Shown piece after piece: positions 1,518-11,436 of a stretch of DNA of 11,436 nucleotides (the first letter of the stretch is position 1; the number at the start of each line of letters is the position of its first letter). Where the stretch lies: contig JAJXTB010000091.1 in the NCBI GenBank assembly GCA_021784205.1, positions 1 through 11,436 of the forward strand, written 5' to 3'. Origin of the DNA: Actinomycetes bacterium. GTDB lineage: Bacteria; Actinomycetota; Acidimicrobiia; Acidimicrobiales; RAAP-2. The translations under genes and the position numbers were made by a program. Under the pieces are notes generated by a model. The model saw nothing but the letters and a program-made list of their open reading frames with translations, had not been told where the DNA came from and did not search any database.

Positions 1518-2426
1518 TCACGTAGTCGTAGGTCGCATTTGCTCCACCTCGCCTCCGGTAGTCATCGCAGACGAGTAACCAACGCCCTCTGTCATGTCCG
1601 TTCCCACCCGATCGCATCGCAGCGCTGCCGTGGTCACGGCGTCAAGTAGACGAACTGTGTACTCGTGCGTCGGGTGCTGAAGCACGTGCTTAGTCTCTCC
1701 GCGTTCGACGACCTGACCCTCGTTTAGAACCAAAATGTGATCGGTGATAACCCGCGCGCTGAGAAGATCATGAGTGATGTAGAGGAGGCTGATCTTGCGC
1801 TCCTCTCGCAACGTGGCGAGAAGCTTCAATATGCCCGCGCGCATCGACACGTCCAGCATCGACACCGGCTCGTCGGCAATGATGAGCTCGGGCTCTGAAG
1901 CAAGGGCGCGGGCGATGACCACTCTTTGACGCTGACCACCCGACAGTTGATGTGGAAGTTTCTTCGCGAACTGGACGGTGGGAACGAGCCCCACCGCTTC
2001 AAGTAGTTCGTGTGCTCTCTCCGACGCCGCAATCCGCGACATTCCGAGGAAGTTGACGCAGGGACGACTGACGACGTACTCAACCGTGTGCATCGGATTC
2101 AGGGCCCCGTAGGGATCCTGGAAAACCATCTGCACGCGACGGTGAAGCGAGCGCAACTCTCGGCGGCGGATCCGCTCGATGGCCAGGTTACCGTAGCGGA
2201 TCTGGCCCGATGTGGGACGCTCCGCGCCGATGATCATCTTGGCCAGTGTGCTCTTGCCGCTCCCGCTCGCTCCCACCAATCCAACGGACGCACCGGGAGC
2301 TATTTCAAATGACACGTCGTCGACGGCGAGGCTCGCCAACCTCGCGCCACGATGTGCCAGATACGTCTTCGATACGTGTTCGACATGCAGTGACGCCCCG
2401 ACCTCCGATGCCTGCGAATTACTCAC
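1518..2426 (-). CDS. ABC transporter ATP-binding protein, DppF/OppF type
   Basis: This is the second ATPase subunit of a peptide/nickel-type (Dpp/Opp) importer. It hydrolyses ATP at the cytoplasmic face to drive uptake through the two permeases encoded upstream. All nucleotide-binding elements are present: Walker A GASGSGKST (residues 52-60), Q-loop MVFQDPY (Gln103), signature LSGGQRQRV (from 161), Walker B LIIADEP (Asp185, Glu186) and the switch histidine in YITHD (His219). At 302 aa it is near the short end for OppF-like subunits. Its C-terminus lacks the cysteine-containing oligopeptide-transporter tail of its partner and is Thr/Gly-rich instead. The start is GTG at 2426. This overlaps the stop of the preceding ATPase gene (2421-2419) by 8 nt, so translation is probably coupled. 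It is the last recognised gene of the operon. Confidence 0.93.
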   Translation of the reverse strand: MSNSQASEVGASLHVEHVSKTYLAHRGARLASLAVDDVSFEIAPGASVGLVGASGSGKSTLAKMIIGAERPTSGQIRYGNLAIERIRRRELRSLHRRVQMVFQDPYGALNPMHTVEYVVSRPCVNFLGMSRIAASERAHELLEAVGLVPTVQFAKKLPHQLSGGQRQRVVIARALASEPELIIADEPVSMLDVSMRAGILKLLATLREERKISLLYITHDLLSARVITDHILVLNEGQVVERGETKHVLQHPTHEYTVRLLDAVTTAALRCDRVGTDMTEGVGYSSAMTTGGEVEQMRPTTT

Positions 2427-3411
2427 GACTGGCTCTCTCGACGAGAGTGGTGCGAACGTGGCACGAAACCCGACCGCCCTCGATCGACGTGAGCTCAGGC
2501 TGCGTCATCGAGCAGAAAGAGATCGCCAGTGAGCATCGCGGCTCGAACGAACAGCCAGGTGGCGCCAGCGAGAGGTCGGGTGGGCTGCCCGGGATATCGA
2601 CGAGCATCACCTCGTCCGCCCGCGGATCGGCGAAGCAACGCAGTAATGCCTCAGTGTAGGGATGATGCTCTCCGCGTGTCAGATCGACAGTTGGTTGATC
2701 CTCAACGATGCGTCCGGCGTACATAACCAACGCTCGGTCCGCGGAGTCGAGCACCTCGCCCAGATCGTGCGTGATCAGGATCGCGGTGAATCCTCGACTC
2801 TTCTGTAGACTCTTGATCGTTGACATCACTGAGCGCTGGACGATGACGTCTAGCGCCGTCGTCGGCTCGTCGAAGATTACGAGTTTCGGCTCGAGCGAGA
2901 GCGCGATTGCAATGGAAACCCTCTGACGCATGCCGCCAGAGAGCTCGTGAGGGAAACGACCCAGAACGCCAGCGTCTAATCCGACGCTCTCGAGGAGTTC
3001 AGTAGCGCGCTCGCGAACCGCGGTTCGATTCCATCGCTCGTTGACAGCCGCATGAGCTCGCAACACATCCGCAAAGTGATGCTGCACGTCGCGCACCGGG
3101 TTAAGGGCATTCATTCCGCTCTGCAAGACAAGAGCGAATCCGTTACGACGATGCTGTCGCAACGCCTCCTGATCGAGTGTGGTGATGTCGTAACCGTCGA
3201 AGATAATCGAACCGCTCTCCATACGCGCGGGTGGACGCAACATTCGGGCGAGAGCGTAACCCAGAGATGACTTGCCACAGCCGGACTCGCCCACCACGCC
3301 GACGAACTCCCCTCGCTCGAAACTCAAGTCAACGTCGCGCACGGCCCATATCCGCTCGCCACCCTGTGGGGCGTAGGCGACGTTCAGCCCATTGACCTCC
3401 AACAGCGCCAT
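2419..3411 (-). CDS. ABC transporter ATP-binding protein, DppD/OppD type with Cys-rich tail
   Basis: This is the first ATPase subunit of the Dpp/Opp-type importer. It shows Walker A GESGCGKSS (41-49), signature LSGGMRQRV (from 157), Walker B LVIFDEP (Asp181, Glu182) and H-loop ITHDL (His215). The Q-loop reads LVLQSGMNALNPV (Gln97) rather than the common FQDPMTSLNP form. The C-terminal oligopeptide-transporter extension carries four cysteines (287, 293, 300, 317) in a CxFxxRCxxAxxxC...C arrangement. In DppD-type proteins this motif can hold an iron-sulfur cluster. ATG at 3411 is preferred: it forms a TGATG overlap with the upstream permease stop, and GAGGGAG lies 5 nt upstream. GTG at 3414 is the alternative. 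The substrate is inferred from context to be an oligosaccharide. A true peptide specificity cannot be excluded from the ATPase alone. Confidence 0.95.
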   Translation of the reverse strand: MALLEVNGLNVAYAPQGGERIWAVRDVDLSFERGEFVGVVGESGCGKSSLGYALARMLRPPARMESGSIIFDGYDITTLDQEALRQHRRNGFALVLQSGMNALNPVRDVQHHFADVLRAHAAVNERWNRTAVRERATELLESVGLDAGVLGRFPHELSGGMRQRVSIAIALSLEPKLVIFDEPTTALDVIVQRSVMSTIKSLQKSRGFTAILITHDLGEVLDSADRALVMYAGRIVEDQPTVDLTRGEHHPYTEALLRCFADPRADEVMLVDIPGSPPDLSLAPPGCSFEPRCSLAISFCSMTQPELTSIEGGRVSCHVRTTLVERASRE

Positions 3412-4349
3412 CACCGCTCCCTCAATCGCGGATTGGCCAGTGCATCGATGCCGAAGTTAATGAAGGCGAACGATACGGCCAAGATCGCGATGGCAACGCC
3501 GGGCGCCAAGAGGAGCAGAATCTGCTTGGAGAGCAGCGCGTTATCTTGCTCGGCCCAGTACAGCAAGTTGCCCCACGCAACCGTGTTGGGATTGCCGATG
3601 CCCAGGAACTCGAGTCCAACCGACGCTGAGAGCGCCGCACCCGCCGCGCCAAAGAAGCTGGCCGCCGCCAACGACGTCATATTCGGCAAGATCTCTCGGA
3701 AGGCAACCCGGAGCAGCCTCTCGCCGGAGAGCACGGCGGCACTGACGAAGTCACTGGTGCGAAGGGTAGCGGCCTGGCTGCGCATCACCTTCGCGCCGGT
3801 GGGCCAGCCGGTGAGTCCGATGAAGATGATGGTTATCCATATCGACTCGCTCTGCACGTAGGTCGATACAACGATAATGAGGACCAGACCCGGCAGGATC
3901 ATGTACTGGTTCGTGATGTACATCAGTGTCTCATCGACGATTCCTGGACGGAAGCCCGCGACGAGACCGACCAGGAGCGCGAGCACCGTGGCGATCGCAC
4001 CGGCGACGAAACTCACCAAGAGCGACACGCGCGTGCCGTAGACGAGCTGGGCGAACACGTCCTGTCCGTTGCCAGTCGTCCCAAACCAGTTGACCGCGTT
4101 CGGGTTCTGGTAGGGCACGAAGTTGTTGGCCGACGGCGACTGCTGAGCAATGAGGGGTGCGAAAATCGCGATTGCGATGAGGGCGAAGAGGATAATTAGT
4201 CCAACACGCGCTTTCGCGTTATCCCAGAGTGTCGCGAAGGCGCGACCGAGGAATCGAATGCTAATCGGCACTCCGCGCCTTCTGGGCGCACCGGACCGTT
4301 CGGTTTCGATGATTGATCCGGGCACCGGCGACGTCGCGTTCTCGGTCAT
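3411..4349 (-). CDS. ABC transporter permease, DppC/OppC type
   Basis: This is the second membrane subunit of the importer. A charged cytoplasmic N-terminus of about 45 residues leads into a first helix (VGLIILFALIAIAIFAPLIA), the arrangement of the OppC N-terminal domain. A conserved external segment follows (NWFGTTGNGQDVFAQLVYGTR), then the binding-protein-dependent transport core with further hydrophobic helices. The EAA-type cytoplasmic loop that contacts the ATPase is visible as AAVLSGERLLRVAFREILPN. The end contains the family's typical GLEFLGIGNPNTVAWGNLL. At about 312 aa it has normal length. ATG at 4349 is chosen, with GTG at 4352 directly in front as the alternative. The upstream G-run is a poor but usable ribosome site. 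It starts about 50 nt after the DppB-like gene and overlaps the next ATPase gene by one base, so it is clearly part of the operon. Confidence 0.95.
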   Translation of the reverse strand: MTENATSPVPGSIIETERSGAPRRRGVPISIRFLGRAFATLWDNAKARVGLIILFALIAIAIFAPLIAQQSPSANNFVPYQNPNAVNWFGTTGNGQDVFAQLVYGTRVSLLVSFVAGAIATVLALLVGLVAGFRPGIVDETLMYITNQYMILPGLVLIIVVSTYVQSESIWITIIFIGLTGWPTGAKVMRSQAATLRTSDFVSAAVLSGERLLRVAFREILPNMTSLAAASFFGAAGAALSASVGLEFLGIGNPNTVAWGNLLYWAEQDNALLSKQILLLLAPGVAIAILAVSFAFINFGIDALANPRLRER

Positions 4350-4401
4350 CACGCCCCCGCGCGACCGCGTCGACGACGCTCGCCCCGTGACCGTAGACGC
4401 G

Positions 4402-5394
4402 TCATTGTGCGCGCGTCCTTGGATCGAGCCAGGTGTAGAGAAGGTCCACAGCGAAGAGCGCCACGAGCATGCTCACCGACGTGAACAGCAAAATGCCCTG
4501 CATGAGGGGATAGTCCCGAGCGTTGATCGCCTGGATGAGTAAGCTGCCGATCCCCGGGATTCCGAAGACGTCCTCGATGAGGACCGTGCCCCCGATAGCC
4601 CCACCTAGCGCCAAGGCAAAATTCGTCACATTCGGCAAGAGCGCGTTGCGAGCCGCGTACGACAAGGCCACCTTGCGTCCCCTCAAGCCGTTAGCCTCCG
4701 CGAACGTCACGTAGTCCTGTCCGAAGGTCGTCACCATGTTGTTGCGCATGCCAAAAACCCACCCCGAGAGCCCCGTGATGACGAGGGCGGCCCATCCCAG
4801 CGCCAGGTGATAAGACGCATCCACCATGAAGTTCCACGTCAGATGGGGAGTCTCCCCGGGGTAGTAGCCACCGACGAGAGGGAACCAATGAAGCCTGAAA
4901 CCGAAGAAGAAGAGGAGCATCAACGCAATCCAAAATGAGGGAAACGATGACGTCAGCGTCGTGCCAACAGTGATCAACTGGTCGATGCGCGACTGACGGT
5001 GCCACGCCGCGTAGACGCCCAGCAGGGTGCCGAGAAAGAACGTCGTGATCGTAGTGGATCCCACCAAAACCAGCGACCACGGAGCCGCAACTTCAAGTGC
5101 CCTGATCACCGATTCGCCGGGAACTGAGGTGGACATGCCCAGTTGGAGTCTTGCAACGTTGGCCAGGTAGTCCCCGTACTGGACCAGCAACGAAGTGTGA
5201 GGAAGCCCCAACTGAATTCCGATGGCCCGCCTCATCGCGGCCGTCACTGCAACGCCAGACTGGGTCATGCGTTCGATGACCGAGTCCGCCGGGGAGCCTG
5301 GCATCAGGCGGGGAAGGATGAAGTTGAACGTGAGCGCCACCCACAGGGTGCTAACGAACAGCGCCAACTTTCGTACGACGTTCCGCAACCTCAT
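4402..5394 (-). CDS. ABC transporter permease, DppB/OppB type
   Basis: This is the first membrane subunit of the importer. It opens with a basic N-terminus and a helix (LALFVSTLWVALTFNFILPRLMPGSP), the usual DppB/OppB opening with the conserved PGSP. A large extracytoplasmic segment follows, then several more helices. The EAA loop reads FAEANGLRGRKVALSYAARN, followed by ALLPNV, a standard match. The C-terminal GIPGIGSLLIQAINARDYPLMQG is also characteristic of the family. ATG at 5394 is chosen because GGTGAGG lies 5 nt upstream and the N-terminus then matches the family's normal length. A GTG at 5415, 21 nt after the binding-protein stop and with its own AGAGGA site, is a real alternative that adds seven residues. 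The pairing with a glycosidase suggests a sugar oligomer as cargo. Confidence 0.94.
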   Translation of the reverse strand: MRLRNVVRKLALFVSTLWVALTFNFILPRLMPGSPADSVIERMTQSGVAVTAAMRRAIGIQLGLPHTSLLVQYGDYLANVARLQLGMSTSVPGESVIRALEVAAPWSLVLVGSTTITTFFLGTLLGVYAAWHRQSRIDQLITVGTTLTSSFPSFWIALMLLFFFGFRLHWFPLVGGYYPGETPHLTWNFMVDASYHLALGWAALVITGLSGWVFGMRNNMVTTFGQDYVTFAEANGLRGRKVALSYAARNALLPNVTNFALALGGAIGGTVLIEDVFGIPGIGSLLIQAINARDYPLMQGILLFTSVSMLVALFAVDLLYTWLDPRTRAQ

Positions 5395-5436
5395 CCTTCC
5401 CTCACCTAGTGCCACCGCGTCCTCTCTGGCCGAGAG

Positions 5437-7119
5437 CTACTTCACCGGCTTGACGTGCATCACGATTGCGAGCAGGTCGTAGTTCCACGTCGCCGGCGTC
5501 GTGTACGGATGCTTAGCCGAGGGCCAGCCCACCCAGTGCCGAGTGGAGAACAAGCCCCACATGCCGCCGTAGTACAGGTTGATCACCGGAACCTGGTTGT
5601 ACATCACGTCGGTCAGTGCGTGGATCCATGGCGCCTCTGCCGCCGTGGTGCGCGCCGCCGCCAAGCCCGCCAAATAGTGGTCGACCACCGGACTTGAGAA
5701 GTGCTCGATGTTGCTGCTTGCCGGCGTGTTGAGGGGGACATCGAATATGCTGTTTAATTGGGGGTTGTACGTTGAGTACGCGCTCCCGGTTCCACCAAAC
5801 GCGTCGATGTTGGCGTCGTACGTCCCATTCGCATTCCCGTTAGCCCAACCGGTGTAGTCAGTGAAATTCGTCGTCACATTCATGCCCAGCGCATTCAACT
5901 CAGAGGCAATCTCCGTCGCCGCGTCATTCCAATCCGTCCAACCCAGCGGGCAGTTGATGTTGAAGCCCACTTGGGTACCGGCCGAGTTCACGAGCTTGCC
6001 GTTCTGCTGGGTGTAGCCCGCCTTAGCGAAGTACGACAGTGCCAGCGTGGTGTTCTGCTTGACTAACCCTTTGTTCGGTATCGTCGGATCCGCCCAAGCC
6101 GCCTGCCCCGGCAGCATTGCGCCGGTCTGGGGGGCAACGCCTTCAAGCCCAAAGAGCGCGGCGTTCTCCACTGCCGACCGATTGATCGCGTACGACATGC
6201 CCAAGCGGAAGTCAACGTTATTGAACGGTGCCTTGGTCAAGTTCATGAACAGCGAGATCACTCCTCCTGGCGGGAACCAATAGACGTTGTGCTTGGGATC
6301 TTGACCGACGAAGGCCGTCTTCACGTTCGGGAAGTTGTCGTAGGCGAAATCGTAGGCGCCACTCGCTATGAGCAGCTGGTTCGCGGCTCCCGTCGACGGT
6401 CCAGCAACAAACGCTACGGTCTCCGGACGCGCCCTCGGCGCCTCAAACGACGTCGGGACCCTCACGAAGACCGTCTTGGTCGGAGCGTAGGACTTAAGGG
6501 TGTAGGGACCGGTGCCCACGGGATGAGTGTTCGTGAACGTCGCCGGATTGCTGACGTGTGACCAGATCGCGCTCGGGACGATTGGCACTCCTGATATCGC
6601 CTGGCGTAGCGGTACGTCCGGCGTCTTCAACCTGAAGGTGACCTTGTTGCCGGCGGCAGACACCGAGGTCAGGACGGACCAGACCCCGCCGGTGTCGAGC
6701 GCGGGAAACTTCTTGAGTAGTTTGAACGTCCCGACTACGTCGGCCGGCGTGAACGCCTTTCCGTTGCTCCACTTCACACCACGTCGAAGCGTGTAGACGA
6801 GTGTCGTCGCGTTGGTGGCCGTGAAGTTCGTGGCGAGTTCCGGCGCCAATGACGCATTCACGGGATTCAACAACTCCAAGCTGTTGTACACCAGATCGAC
6901 GCCCAGATCACCCCCAGCGAACGGGTTCAGGTTCAAGACGTTGTTAGTGTTTCCCTGAATGGTGAGCACGCCGTGCGCAGCCGTTCGCACGTGCGGGGAA
7001 CTACCAGTGCCGCTGGCCCCCGCACCTGACGCGGCCGCGATGATGGGGGTCAGGGAGAGTCCCATCATCGCGGCCGCGATCCCAAGCCAAACGCTGTGTG
7101 GCTTCGTATGTGATTTCAT
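5437..7119 (-). CDS. Extracellular solute-binding protein, family 5 (DppA/OppA-like)
   Basis: This is the binding protein that captures substrate outside the membrane and delivers it to the permease pair. It has 560 aa, typical for family-5 proteins. The N-terminus is a signal peptide: basic start (MKSHTKPH), hydrophobic core to about residue 30, then an Ala/Ser/Gly-rich linker. No cysteine lies at the cleavage region, so it is not an obvious lipoprotein. The mature part shows family landmarks, such as LNLNPFAGGDLGVDLVYNSL, LAPELATNF, YTLRRGVKWSNGKAFTPADV, HPVGTGPYTLKSY and DFRLGMSYAINRSAV. A ribosome site (AGAAGG) precedes the ATG, which lies 28 nt after the glycosidase stop. Codons 14-30 form a perfect 18-bp inverted repeat. 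Cargo is not readable from sequence. Oligosaccharide is inferred from the neighbours, peptide is the alternative. Confidence 0.93.
   Translation of the reverse strand: MKSHTKPHSVWLGIAAAMMGLSLTPIIAAASGAGASGTGSSPHVRTAAHGVLTIQGNTNNVLNLNPFAGGDLGVDLVYNSLELLNPVNASLAPELATNFTATNATTLVYTLRRGVKWSNGKAFTPADVVGTFKLLKKFPALDTGGVWSVLTSVSAAGNKVTFRLKTPDVPLRQAISGVPIVPSAIWSHVSNPATFTNTHPVGTGPYTLKSYAPTKTVFVRVPTSFEAPRARPETVAFVAGPSTGAANQLLIASGAYDFAYDNFPNVKTAFVGQDPKHNVYWFPPGGVISLFMNLTKAPFNNVDFRLGMSYAINRSAVENAALFGLEGVAPQTGAMLPGQAAWADPTIPNKGLVKQNTTLALSYFAKAGYTQQNGKLVNSAGTQVGFNINCPLGWTDWNDAATEIASELNALGMNVTTNFTDYTGWANGNANGTYDANIDAFGGTGSAYSTYNPQLNSIFDVPLNTPASSNIEHFSSPVVDHYLAGLAAARTTAAEAPWIHALTDVMYNQVPVINLYYGGMWGLFSTRHWVGWPSAKHPYTTPATWNYDLLAIVMHVKPVK
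7030..7078 (-). repeat. Perfect 18-bp inverted repeat (hairpin) in signal-peptide codons
   Basis: CGCGGCCGCGATGATGGG at 7030-7047 is the exact reverse complement of 7061-7078, with a 13-nt loop at 7048-7060. In the mRNA this would fold into a very stable GC-rich stem starting about 40 nt after the binding-protein start codon. It encodes the mirrored peptide pattern IAAAMMG...PIIAAA within the signal peptide. There is no U-run after it, so it does not look like an intrinsic terminator. Possible roles include an RNA processing or stability element separating the glycosidase message from the transporter message, or a translational pause during export. The function is inferred. Confidence 0.85.
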
Positions 7120-7147
7120 GGTCTACCTTCTCTCTTCGACCGGATGC

Positions 7148-8965
7148 TCATCCGGCAGATAGTCGGATCCGGGCGACGCCCGGCATCGGAATGGAAAACG
7201 TGACGAAAGCCTCCCCGTCCGTTGGCTGCACATCAGCCAGTCGCTCTTGGTATAGAACGTCGATCGCGCGCAAACGCGACCACGCTTGGGCGTCCGGCCA
7301 ATCGACGCCTGGGGGCAGTTCTTTGATGATGTTGGAGTGATCCGCGTCAACACGCGCGAGAAGAGCCCCGTACGACTTCCCCTCAAGGTTGTGCAAGCGC
7401 ACCGTCACAGTACGGTCAAGGCGCGGATCACCACTGCTCATTGCACTGTTGATCGTTCCATTCCAGACCAGCACGTCAATGGTGCCGTCATCGTGGCGAG
7501 TCGCGTTCGCCCCGACCAACACTTCGGCTCCGTCTCCAGTGACAGTGAGGTCTAAGACGTCATCGCCCTGGGCCGCTGCGAGGTGTGCTGCCCAGAACCT
7601 CGGTTTGCGGAGATTGCCAACACTGAGAAGGCCGAAACCGTCGTGAAAAAGTTTCGGCGGCCGTCCCAACTCCTCGAAGTGGTCGCTGATCACCCAATAC
7701 GCAAGTGCGTCGAGCCGTCCTTGAACGGCGTTGTAACCCTGAAGAATGAAGGGGGCACCCATCGGCGAGTCGTGAATGGCGCCGAAATGTGTGCTGCCCA
7801 CGCCCCACTCAGTCCACCAGATCGGGATTCCCGCGTAGCCGTAACGCTCGAGCATCGGTCGCAGGTCGATGGGCAGGTTGCCGTAGGTGTGCGTTGAAAC
7901 GAAGTCGAGCGGCACTCGACGAGCGCTCGTGTAGTCGAGTAGCGGCTCGATCCACTCGCCAGCCGCGCTTCCGGGCCCGCCGACGCGAAGACGTTCGTCA
8001 ACCTCCTTGACCGCTCTAGCCGCCTCCTCATAGAGACGCAAATACTCGTCGCGAGTACCCGTCCAGAACACCTCCAAATTTGCTTCGTTCCACACCTCGA
8101 AGCCCCATGCAGAAACCTCATCAATCCCGTAGCGCGCGACGAGATGGCGCGCCAAGGCCGAGACAAGGTGATACCACTCGCTCCAGTCCTTCGGCGGAGA
8201 GATGACGCCGCGATACGTGAAGACCGTCGCATCGGGATCTCGAGCGAGAGCCGCCGGCATGAACGAGAGCTCCACGATCGGACAGAGCCCCATCTCCACC
8301 AAACGGTCGTAGACGTCGTCGATGCCATCGAAGTCGTACGAGAGAGCACCGAACTCGTCTCGACGTACGACATTGAGGTCGTCATGAAAGATGGCGTGAG
8401 CACGCACGAATCGCACGCCCAGTTCATCACGGGCGATCCCCAGCGCCTCGGCGAACTCGCGCCCGACGTCGTGACCGTGCTCATCGACTCCCAAGCGCAG
8501 TTGCGAGAGTCTCTCCGCGCCCACCATCTCCCACACACGTCGGAGCGGACGGACAACCGAAGCGACGTCGATGTTCATCTCAATCGGCGCCGGTTCGTTA
8601 CGAAGTGTGGTGCCCACTACCGGAGCCGACCAGGTTTCGATGACATCGCCGGGATTGCGCACGGCGGCTATCCGAAAGCGGTACTCGGCTCCATCGTCAA
8701 TTCCAGTCACCGCAAACTGTGTCATTGGAGTTGCGGCAACGTCACTCCCTCCGTGGCGAAGCACGGTAGGGGTACCCCGATCATCGGTCATCTCGATGAC
8801 GTAACCGGCAGCACCCGACACGGGCTTCCAACACAGACGGATGTGCCCGGTGCCGGGCTCGGCTGTCACCTCGGGCGGCGACAGCGTCGACGACCCCTCC
8901 ACAGCATCTGAACGTTGGTAGATCCGAGACTCCCAGTCCTCTCGAGCCCTGAGCGAGTCACTCAT
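7148..8965 (-). CDS. GH39 beta-xylosidase-like glycoside hydrolase with N-terminal FnIII-like domain
   Basis: A predicted cytoplasmic glycosidase of 605 aa that would release sugars, probably xylose, from imported beta-linked oligosaccharides. Residues ~30-120 resemble a fibronectin type III domain (PPEVTAEPGTG..., GAAGYVIEM, GAEYRFRIAAV, WSAPVVGTT). From ~180 the GH39 barrel follows: VRFVRAHAIFHDDL, CPIVELSFMPAALA, ISPPKDW and FEVWNEANLEVFW. Glu294 of WNEANL is the expected acid/base. Glu386 in WWTEWG is the likely nucleophile, and FVSTHTY lies between them. A beta-rich C-terminal region completes the family architecture. No signal peptide is present. ATG at 8965 is chosen because a GAGGAG site lies upstream and it sits one base after the regulator's stop. 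An ATG at 9025 would extend into the regulator gene. GH39 also contains alpha-L-iduronidases, but the motifs here fit the bacterial xylosidase branch better. Confidence 0.9.
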   Translation of the reverse strand: MSDSLRAREDWESRIYQRSDAVEGSSTLSPPEVTAEPGTGHIRLCWKPVSGAAGYVIEMTDDRGTPTVLRHGGSDVAATPMTQFAVTGIDDGAEYRFRIAAVRNPGDVIETWSAPVVGTTLRNEPAPIEMNIDVASVVRPLRRVWEMVGAERLSQLRLGVDEHGHDVGREFAEALGIARDELGVRFVRAHAIFHDDLNVVRRDEFGALSYDFDGIDDVYDRLVEMGLCPIVELSFMPAALARDPDATVFTYRGVISPPKDWSEWYHLVSALARHLVARYGIDEVSAWGFEVWNEANLEVFWTGTRDEYLRLYEEAARAVKEVDERLRVGGPGSAAGEWIEPLLDYTSARRVPLDFVSTHTYGNLPIDLRPMLERYGYAGIPIWWTEWGVGSTHFGAIHDSPMGAPFILQGYNAVQGRLDALAYWVISDHFEELGRPPKLFHDGFGLLSVGNLRKPRFWAAHLAAAQGDDVLDLTVTGDGAEVLVGANATRHDDGTIDVLVWNGTINSAMSSGDPRLDRTVTVRLHNLEGKSYGALLARVDADHSNIIKELPPGVDWPDAQAWSRLRAIDVLYQERLADVQPTDGEAFVTFSIPMPGVARIRLSAG

Positions 8966-8966
8966 G

Positions 8967-10028
8967 TCACACTCCTCGTTGCGTAATCGAATCGTTGGTA
9001 CGACATCCACAGCTACGGCGTACAACGACGGCAGTGGGAAGTGTCACGACCTGGCGGTCCAGACCCGGATTCTCAATCCGGTTCAGCAACAGCTCGACCG
9101 CGCGTTCACCGAGCTCGCGCATGGGCTGGCGCACCGTGGTCAGCGCGGGACTCACTCGGCGACTTGATGCGATATCGTCAAAACCCGTCACGGCGATGTC
9201 GCTGGGAACGCGTACTCGCGCGCGGCGTAACGTCCTCAGCCCCCCAATGGCCATCTCGTCGTTGCCGAAGACCACAGCACGAATCTTTCGTCCCGAGAGC
9301 AGAAGACGCCGCATGGCTTCAGCGCCACCATCCTCCGTAAAATCGCCGAAGTCGTCCGGGACCTTTGGAGCATCGATTTGAGCCGACACGAGCACTTCGC
9401 AATAGCCGACGAAACGCTCGGCCGAGTCAGCCGAACGAGGCGGACCTCCTACGAACGCGAGCTCTCGGTACCCGTGCGTTTCGACTAGGTGCGAGGTAAT
9501 TTCGCGCGCACCAGAGCGGTTGTCGACGCTCGCTCGGTCAAGGACGCGACTTCCCGGAAGGCTGGCCACAATGATCACTGGCACGATGCGAGAGATCGTT
9601 GAGATTTCGCGCCCCGAGAGACTTCCCGACACGACGACCAATCCGTCGACCTTGCCAACGATTGAGCGCAGGAGGTCTCGGCCCGAAGCCCCCCGAGAAG
9701 CCGCTATTAGAACGGCCTCACCCGCGAGCGTTGCGGCACGCTCGGCGCCCCTGATCACTTCGTCGACGTAGAGGGGCGACTCGTCTTCGGTGGCGCCGGA
9801 CCGACCCAGATCAGGAAAGATCACTCCAACGATCCCCGCGCGGTTGGAAGCCAGACTTCGTGCGGCCCCGTTGGGCACCCACCCGAGGTCACGTGCCGCG
9901 GCGAACACGCGCTCGCGCGTCGACTCCTTGCCGAAAGAGGCATCACTGATGATGCGCGACACGGTGGCAGTCGAGACACCGCATCGCTGCGCCACAGCGT
10001 AGATAGTCGCCTTTCCTGACAACGCCAC
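8967..10028 (-). CDS. LacI-family transcriptional regulator
   Basis: This is a DNA-binding regulator of 353 aa, normal for the family. The N-terminal helix-turn-helix is TIYAVAQRCGVSTATVSRII (about residues 8-27). The hinge-helix region follows (VPNGAARSLASNRAGIVGVI), then a periplasmic-binding-protein-like sensor domain. The sensor domain shows typical late-family segments: VVFGNDEMAIGGLRTLRRA, VPSDIAVTGFDDI and ALTTVRQPMRELGERAVELL. Translation starts at GTG 10028 behind a G-rich ribosome site. An ATG option is not nearby. It is the first gene of the operon. The palindromic AGCGCT-centred boxes lie at the operon promoter, so it most likely represses its own transcription along with the downstream genes and responds to a sugar ligand. 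The ligand is unknown; xylose or a xylo-oligosaccharide is inferred from the glycosidase. Confidence 0.93.
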   Translation of the reverse strand: MALSGKATIYAVAQRCGVSTATVSRIISDASFGKESTRERVFAAARDLGWVPNGAARSLASNRAGIVGVIFPDLGRSGATEDESPLYVDEVIRGAERAATLAGEAVLIAASRGASGRDLLRSIVGKVDGLVVVSGSLSGREISTISRIVPVIIVASLPGSRVLDRASVDNRSGAREITSHLVETHGYRELAFVGGPPRSADSAERFVGYCEVLVSAQIDAPKVPDDFGDFTEDGGAEAMRRLLLSGRKIRAVVFGNDEMAIGGLRTLRRARVRVPSDIAVTGFDDIASSRRVSPALTTVRQPMRELGERAVELLLNRIENPGLDRQVVTLPTAVVVRRSCGCRTNDSITQRGV

Positions 10029-10235: not shown

Positions 10236-11436
10236 TCAAGGCTCGAGTATCTCCGATGAACCCCAGGTGCCGCGCGCGAGGCGAACAGTCATTTCCTCAG
10301 AAGGCATCGGTCGCGCAAAGAAGTACCCTTGTGCCGACTGACAACCAAGATCGCTGACGTATCGTGCCTGGTCTCTCTCTTCGACACCTTCAGCAATGGT
10401 TCTTAGGTTAAGTCCCGCGCTGAGATCAAGAATGGCCCGCAAGATGGCTTCACCACCTGGGTGACCGGATGAGGCGGCATCGACAAATGTCTTGTCGATC
10501 TTGAGTATGTCGATTGGAAAGTGACGTAGGTACGCCAGTGAGCTGTAACCCGTTCCAAAATCATCGATTGCAATTGAGACTCCAAGCTCCTTGAGCTCTC
10601 GTAGACGTTCAACGACGAGGTCTATATCACTCATCAACAGTGATTCCGTAATCTCGAGCACCAGACCTTCGGGTGCAAACCCCGAACTAGCCAAGATTCG
10701 GCGCACGTCGGGTATCAGGCTCTTGTGTGTGAGTTGCCGTCCCGAGACGTTAACTGCCATTGAGAAGGGATCCTCGGGATTCAGATCCTTGCGCCAGGCA
10801 GCGGCCTGTTCACACGCCTGCTCGAGCACCCACCGGCCGATCGGAACGATGAGGCCCGTCTGTTCCGCGACGGGGATAATGTGATCAGGCATGACGAGTC
10901 CGAACTCGTGGTGGCGCCAACGTAGGAGAGCCTCGACACCCTCGAGTTGCTCGCTAGCTAGGTTGATGCTCGGCTGATAGTAAACCACGAGTTGATCACG
11001 CTCAAGAGCTCTCGCCAGATCCTGGGAAAAGCGAAGCTGTTTGGTCGCGCGTGCGTGCATTGCGGGTTCAAAGCGTCGATACCGATCGCGCCCGTTCGCC
11101 TTTGCCGCGTACATGGCGATGTCGGCGTCGCGGACAAGGGCCACCGGCGTTTCGCCGTGGTCGGATATTGCAATTCCAATACTGGCGCTCACCCGCAGAC
11201 TCGTTCCCCGGATTACCAGCGGTTGACGGACAAGGTCAAGGATTCGGCCCGCAACTTCGTCGGCAAAGGGTACCTCATTGAGGCCCTCAAGGAGAACGGC
11301 GAACTCATCACCACCGAGTCGGGCGACCGTATCTCCGGGTCTGGCTGAGCGGGCCACACGTGCGGCTATCTCTCGCAAAGCATCGTCACCAGCCTCGTGG
11401 CCCATACCATCGTTAATCGCCTTAAAGCCGTCAAGG
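10236..11436 (-). CDS. GGDEF-EAL cyclic-di-GMP signalling protein (partial, 5' end outside window)
   Basis: A bifunctional-type c-di-GMP enzyme whose N-terminus, including any sensor domain, lies beyond the right edge. The first visible residues (LDGFKAINDGMGH) are already inside the GGDEF domain. Counting from the Met at 11405, the active-site motif GGDEF is intact (31-35). An RxxD inhibitory-site motif (RPGD, 22-25) lies five residues before it. The EAL domain follows with its catalytic set apparently complete: EAL 158-160, Asn219 (AVNVSGRQL), Glu251 (LEITES), Asp281-Asp282 in DDFGTGYSSL, Lys302 (ILKIDK), Glu339 (TIAEGVEE) and Gln359 (SAQGYFFARP). Synthesis and degradation are therefore both possible on paper. 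Which dominates cannot be told. The stop is TGA at 10238-10236. It ends upstream of the sugar operon's own promoter and is probably an independent gene. Confidence 0.94.
   Translation of the reverse strand, partial: LDGFKAINDGMGHEAGDDALREIAARVARSARPGDTVARLGGDEFAVLLEGLNEVPFADEVAGRILDLVRQPLVIRGTSLRVSASIGIAISDHGETPVALVRDADIAMYAAKANGRDRYRRFEPAMHARATKQLRFSQDLARALERDQLVVYYQPSINLASEQLEGVEALLRWRHHEFGLVMPDHIIPVAEQTGLIVPIGRWVLEQACEQAAAWRKDLNPEDPFSMAVNVSGRQLTHKSLIPDVRRILASSGFAPEGLVLEITESLLMSDIDLVVERLRELKELGVSIAIDDFGTGYSSLAYLRHFPIDILKIDKTFVDAASSGHPGGEAILRAILDLSAGLNLRTIAEGVEERDQARYVSDLGCQSAQGYFFARPMPSEEMTVRLARGTWGSSEILEP

Follow-up and report, generated by a model that had tools for sequence, protein, structure and literature searches.

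Why should a long and perfect inverted repeat lie within the translated signal-peptide codons of a transport gene? From the letters alone the repeat had been suggested to act as an mRNA element or to stem from a short in-frame insertion or duplication, and these readings are weighed here against mutation at the DNA level and against coincidence.

The host operon and the geometry of the hairpin

The window (the whole 11,436-nt stretch of DNA that was analysed) carries on its minus strand, in order of transcription, genes for a LacI-family regulator (8967–10028), a glycoside hydrolase family 39-like protein (7148–8965), a 560 aa solute-binding protein of the SBP_bac_5 family (PF00496; 5437–7119), an OppB-type and an OppC-type permease (4402–5415 and 3411–4352) and two ABC ATPases (2419–3414 and 1518–2426). 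In Pfam the glycosidase is matched by family 39 and, under the cut-off, by fn3; its sole NCBIfam match, to alpha-1,4-L-rhamnosidase, is far under the cut-off. The glycosidase start is placed provisionally at 8965, the longest frame beginning at 9025. Among solved structures, those closest in sequence to the binding protein bear the names of peptide-binding or chitin-oligosaccharide-binding proteins (6lzt, 5yqw and 1zty), and because of these relatives and the adjoining glycosidase the job of the operon is likely to be oligosaccharide uptake.

Between 10050 and 10092, some 20–65 bp upstream of the lacI-type gene, an AAGCGCT-type motif, which we take to be a LacI-family operator motif, occurs three times (CAAGCGCTCTT, TTAAGCGCTTG and TTAAGCGCTTA); these copies look like putative operators through which the operon would be autoregulated. 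Further upstream on the same strand, positions 10236–11405 encode an EAL domain and a partial GGDEF domain (profile positions 51–161 of 161), and this gene may be cut by the window end. At the other side of the glycosidase gene, a candidate Shine-Dalgarno sequence, AGAAGG, can be read at 7126–7131 upstream of the binding-protein ATG at 7119, and a perfect 6-bp hairpin (CCGGAT-4-ATCCGG; 7140–7155) spans the glycosidase stop codon. Lying between the glycosidase and binding-protein genes, this small hairpin occupies the more usual site for an intercistronic mRNA element; it is partly paired (4 bp) when folded in a context of 161 nt.

The stem of interest lies in codons 14–30 of the binding-protein signal peptide. 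In the minus-strand mRNA its 5' arm (7061–7078) runs from the last base of codon 14 to the second base of codon 20, the 13-nt loop (7048–7060) comprises the last base of G20 followed by L21, S22, L23 and T24, and the 3' arm (7030–7047) covers codons 25–30, encoding P I I A A A. The arms are exact reverse complements over 18 bp, precisely as originally described, and the mirrored IAAAMMG/PIIAAA peptide pattern was also read correctly. In this register third bases stand opposite third bases and first bases opposite second bases. The segment CGCGGCCGCG, which encodes Ala-Ala-Ala as GCG GCC GCG, is its own reverse complement, is found in both arms and supplies 10 of the 18 pairs. A scan of the entire window for perfect stems of at least 12 bp with loops of 3–20 nt returned this stem as its sole match. 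Pairing begins at nucleotide 42 of the frame, 41 nt past the A of the ATG, in agreement with the earlier figure of about 40 nt, and this is beyond the usual footprint of the initiating ribosome.

The 49-nt hairpin RNA of the coding strand has a predicted folding energy of -41.4 kcal/mol (z -9.4; shuffled sequences -15.1, sd 2.8). Folding of the surrounding mRNA had been proposed as a check, and the 18-bp stem persists in the 161-nt context (z -4.4). If it forms, the stem would be strong enough to affect ribosomes or RNases. Such stability favours the view of a selected mRNA hairpin just past the initiating ribosome, with the amino acids following the stem, which could slow early elongation, shield the message from RNases or expose it to them, or tune binding-protein output relative to the glycosidase and permeases. 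Against it, the stem is part of a translated frame and would presumably be melted by passing ribosomes, and the hairpin gave no match in Rfam 15 at the gathering score; taken with the comparisons described below, we consider selection of this kind unlikely.

Known classes of element were sought around the hairpin. No intrinsic terminator was returned by a scan of 6800–7300 that covered loops of 3–8 nt, and no U run is seen in the sequence 3' of the stem. Further copies of the arms were absent from the window at up to three mismatches and, as exact copies, from 122 loci. The scans of the window, Rfam and the 122 loci thus give no support to a terminator, an Rfam family or a repeat element. Nor did the sequence comparisons yield any sign that the message is processed or its output controlled at this site. 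Pairing of the loop CUCUC with GAGAG beside the Shine-Dalgarno sequence was also considered and set aside, 19% of random synonymous loops doing likewise.

Rarity of the stem and the contribution of its codons

The stem is rare, though favoured by the peptide that it encodes. Four related genomes, surveyed over 732 kb (G421, G035, G003 and G215; GC 51–70%) with loops of 3–20 nt, gave six perfect stems of at least 14 bp, two of at least 16 bp and one of at least 18 bp. The last, a 19-bp perfect stem with a 5-nt loop, is located in G035, which belongs to a family also holding Acidithrix, at L105:8060-8102 within a mechanically called frame of 351 aa. At gene starts, which were likewise called mechanically, the longest perfect stem was 9 bp among 60 starts that resembled signal peptides by a crude rule (120 nt each) and 11 bp among 600 sampled from the 939 others. 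No surveyed start exceeds these lengths, so stems of this kind do not commonly arise as by-products, a point against the mutational reading favoured below.

A different picture emerges when the peptide is held fixed. Among 5000 draws of codons from the operon, 17 produced a stem of at least 18 bp (P 0.0034); shuffling the gene's synonymous codons among themselves did so in 9 of 2000 permutations, and a smaller run over 36 codons in none of 600 codings. Given the value of 0.0034, codon composition accounts for much of the stem length. The peptide itself predisposes to a stem, since its Ala-Ala-Ala is coded in both arms by GCG-GCC-GCG, a self-complementary block. The stem was picked for its perfection, and for that reason these values are no test of function. 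The original prediction that such a stem is unlikely by chance therefore stands in part: the stem is an outlier, but the peptide predisposes to it and both kinds of recoding reach its length.

These figures bear on the possibility that the stem arose in one lineage by coincidence alone, from codon bias combined with a signal peptide rich in alanine, with any matching changes between its arms being chance among a few conservative C-to-T or G-to-A substitutions. A probability of about 0.003–0.005 per such peptide, for a stem chosen for being perfect, makes this conceivable, as does the occurrence of the one 19-bp perfect stem within 180 kb of a control genome of 68% GC; the absence of any other surveyed gene start above 11 bp weighs the other way.

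Facing changes in close orthologues and the more distant relatives

The six closest orthologues were compared with the window protein. P0001 (29 member sequences), P0004 and P0002 are 93%, 92% and 91% identical to it, whereas P0003, P0005 and P0006 are 75%, 69% and 65% identical. A protein search with residues 1–60 alone matched only the first three, and these form with the window protein a supported group (100/100) with unresolved inner branching, within which the loop residues 21–24 are invariant. Residues 1–37 of the window protein align without a gap to P0001–P0006, and on this ground an insertion or duplication was rejected; although the 12-mer ATCGCGGCCGCG is additionally repeated directly on the coding strand, as that origin might leave it, we regard the idea as highly improbable.

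Back-translation in the stem register indicates that P0001, P0002 and P0004 could each encode 17 Watson-Crick pairs and one G-U. At most 13, 12 and 13 of the 18 Watson-Crick pairs are available to P0003, P0005 and P0006, with 3, 4 and 2 unpairable positions, and by their residues these three proteins cannot encode this stem. Random codings of the P0001, P0002 and P0004 peptides (600 draws each) gave a Watson-Crick stem of at least 12 bp in 1–2% of cases, and one of at least 14 bp with G-U pairs allowed in 5–7%.

The differences within the close group fall in a suggestive arrangement. Ten residues within 1–439 are specific to the window protein, and they include V19M and T26I, with the altered bases opposite one another in the stem. 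Fifteen are specific to P0002 over the same span, with A16V, A17T and A28V located in the arms; at position 29 P0002 has I where P0001 and P0004 have V and the window protein has A. The facing residue pairs are accordingly V19M/T26I, A16V/V29I and A17T/A28V, and they imply G-C to A-U exchanges at codon positions 19.1-26.2, 16.2-29.1 and 17.1-28.2, every step being C-to-T or G-to-A, on the assumption that codons changed in one step and that the state in the other three proteins (at position 29, that in P0001 and P0004) is the older. The direction of change at position 19 is uncertain because P0003 has M there. The two changed pairs of P0002 adjoin closely within the stem.

Permutation over the conservative C-to-T and G-to-A sites gave probabilities of 0.076 and 0.021, one for each lineage (product 0.0016), and, when conditioned on the split between arms, 0.14 and 0.048 (product 0.0069); these tests are post hoc, built on the pattern already seen, and concern four proteins. 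In neutral simulations scoring at least 17 Watson-Crick pairs, the pairing potential of P0002 had a P of 0.008–0.073 depending on assumptions, while P0001 alone (0.04–0.14) and P0004 alone (0.12–0.21) were unremarkable. The facing changes are compatible with G-C to A-U swaps and would speak against pure accident, being improbable even under a null limited to conservative sites. The small post hoc sample tells in favour of coincidence, and on balance we find a purely accidental stem possible yet rather doubtful.

Facing changes would be expected equally from correction by template switching and from selection acting on the mRNA. Their compatibility in the closest orthologues and the P0002 simulations lend some weight to the selected hairpin, from which the ordinary behaviour of P0001 and P0004 detracts. 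That the signal-peptide codons hold a clade-level mRNA element selected as RNA, with the stem driving V19M with T26I, A16V with V29I and A17T with A28V, seems to us distinctly improbable; were the RNA-selected reading true, RNA shape would dictate protein sequence where the protein need only be hydrophobic.

The DNA of more distant relatives was also inspected. Genome contigs provided 45 loci with a best identity of 60%, and the best identity in whole genomes was 59%; the latter comprised two overlapping draws of 397 from the order (centred on G001 and G299, the second queried with P0001), 395 genomes drawn from the class, and two families, one of 32 and one of 42 genomes. Since the draws from order and class are samples of larger groups, a close relative may exist beyond the sampled genomes. 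Among named relatives at 55–59% identity are Ferrimicrobium, Acidithrix and an Acidimicrobiales MAG. A blastn search of a plasmid collection with the gene and its leader gave no match, and among viral contigs 29 stretches fit a pattern, none of them a relative.

Alignment located 70 distinct signal regions in 85 matching loci (from 90 nt upstream to 180 nt downstream of the estimated start; two cut by the locus end), all from relatives no more than about 60% identical. In every one of the 70 the longest perfect stem, with loops of 3–20 nt allowed, measured 5–10 bp. It was 5–7 bp in the nine regions whose gene is at least 50% identical, and the same scan of the window's own region returned 18 bp. 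A cruder scan from the most upstream ATG in 13 of the 45 contig loci, which covered some signal regions in part, gave 5–9 bp. Conservation of the stem across orthologues was thus found neither in these 70 DNA regions nor in the three proteins at 65–75% identity, a lack of conservation at 75% identity and below that counts against a selected hairpin. Hydrophobic signal peptides that lack a stem are the pattern that the original prediction had itself named as contrary to an RNA role, and it is seen in those three relatives at the protein level and in all 70 regions as DNA. Its proposed comparison for compensatory changes, made here on proteins, turned out weakly positive in the three closest orthologues, which are stem-compatible and have facing changes in both arms. 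The stem looks confined to one small lineage.

A proposed mutational origin and comparison with known systems

With moderate confidence, we favour a lineage-restricted inverted repeat in the codons of the signal-peptide hydrophobic core, which mutation for the most part created and maintains close to perfection, with no dedicated RNA function. A by-product of template switching, or chance, is preferred over a regulator because the stem is absent beyond the closest clade, the codon contribution is strong and the location is translated. The two GCG GCC GCG alanine triplets, facing each other across a short spacer, would constitute a quasi-palindrome; template switching during replication could then rewrite one arm from the other, which would make the two fully complementary and change them in pairs. 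The resulting A/V/T/I/M swaps would be tolerated in the core of the signal peptide and for that reason persist. The stem has the form expected of a template-switch product, a near-perfect inverted repeat with a short spacer. Template switching has been proposed to create or perfect stems and to leave clustered changes (PMC8794818), and the neighbouring changed pairs of P0002 have this arrangement. We infer both that such switching took place at this stem and that the stem has no regulatory role.

Signal-peptide cores tolerate many residues, and processes at the DNA or RNA level can therefore mark protein sequence there. Should the facing changes be genuine compensations, the locus offers a compact case for separating template-switch mutation from RNA selection in coding sequence; if they are not, it is an example of self-complementary alanine codons mimicking a regulatory hairpin.

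Among the papers listed on mRNA structure with signal peptides, on pausing and SRP and on quasi-palindromes, judged by titles and the opening lines of abstracts, we recognised no described case of this kind, and one may exist in print. Stabilising intercistronic hairpins occur in malEFG-type operons. These resemble the present situation in belonging to a binding-protein operon that needs differential expression, but they sit between genes, whereas the present stem is inside translated signal-peptide codons. The mutational hotspot gene of Pseudomonas fluorescens (PMC9234803) is alike in being reportedly a bacterial case in which mutation is biased by features of the nearby sequence; the terms hairpin and quasipalindrome occur in that text, while the present stem is described from sequence. 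The quasi-palindrome or template-switch hairpins of Monttinen and Loytynoja (2022; PMC8794818) concern RNA genes, whereas our stem lies in the codons of a secreted protein whose closest orthologues were compared as proteins. They are nevertheless alike in their perfect short-loop inverted repeat and in their clustered, apparently compensatory changes, and the mechanism described there is one by which a single event can create or perfect a stem.
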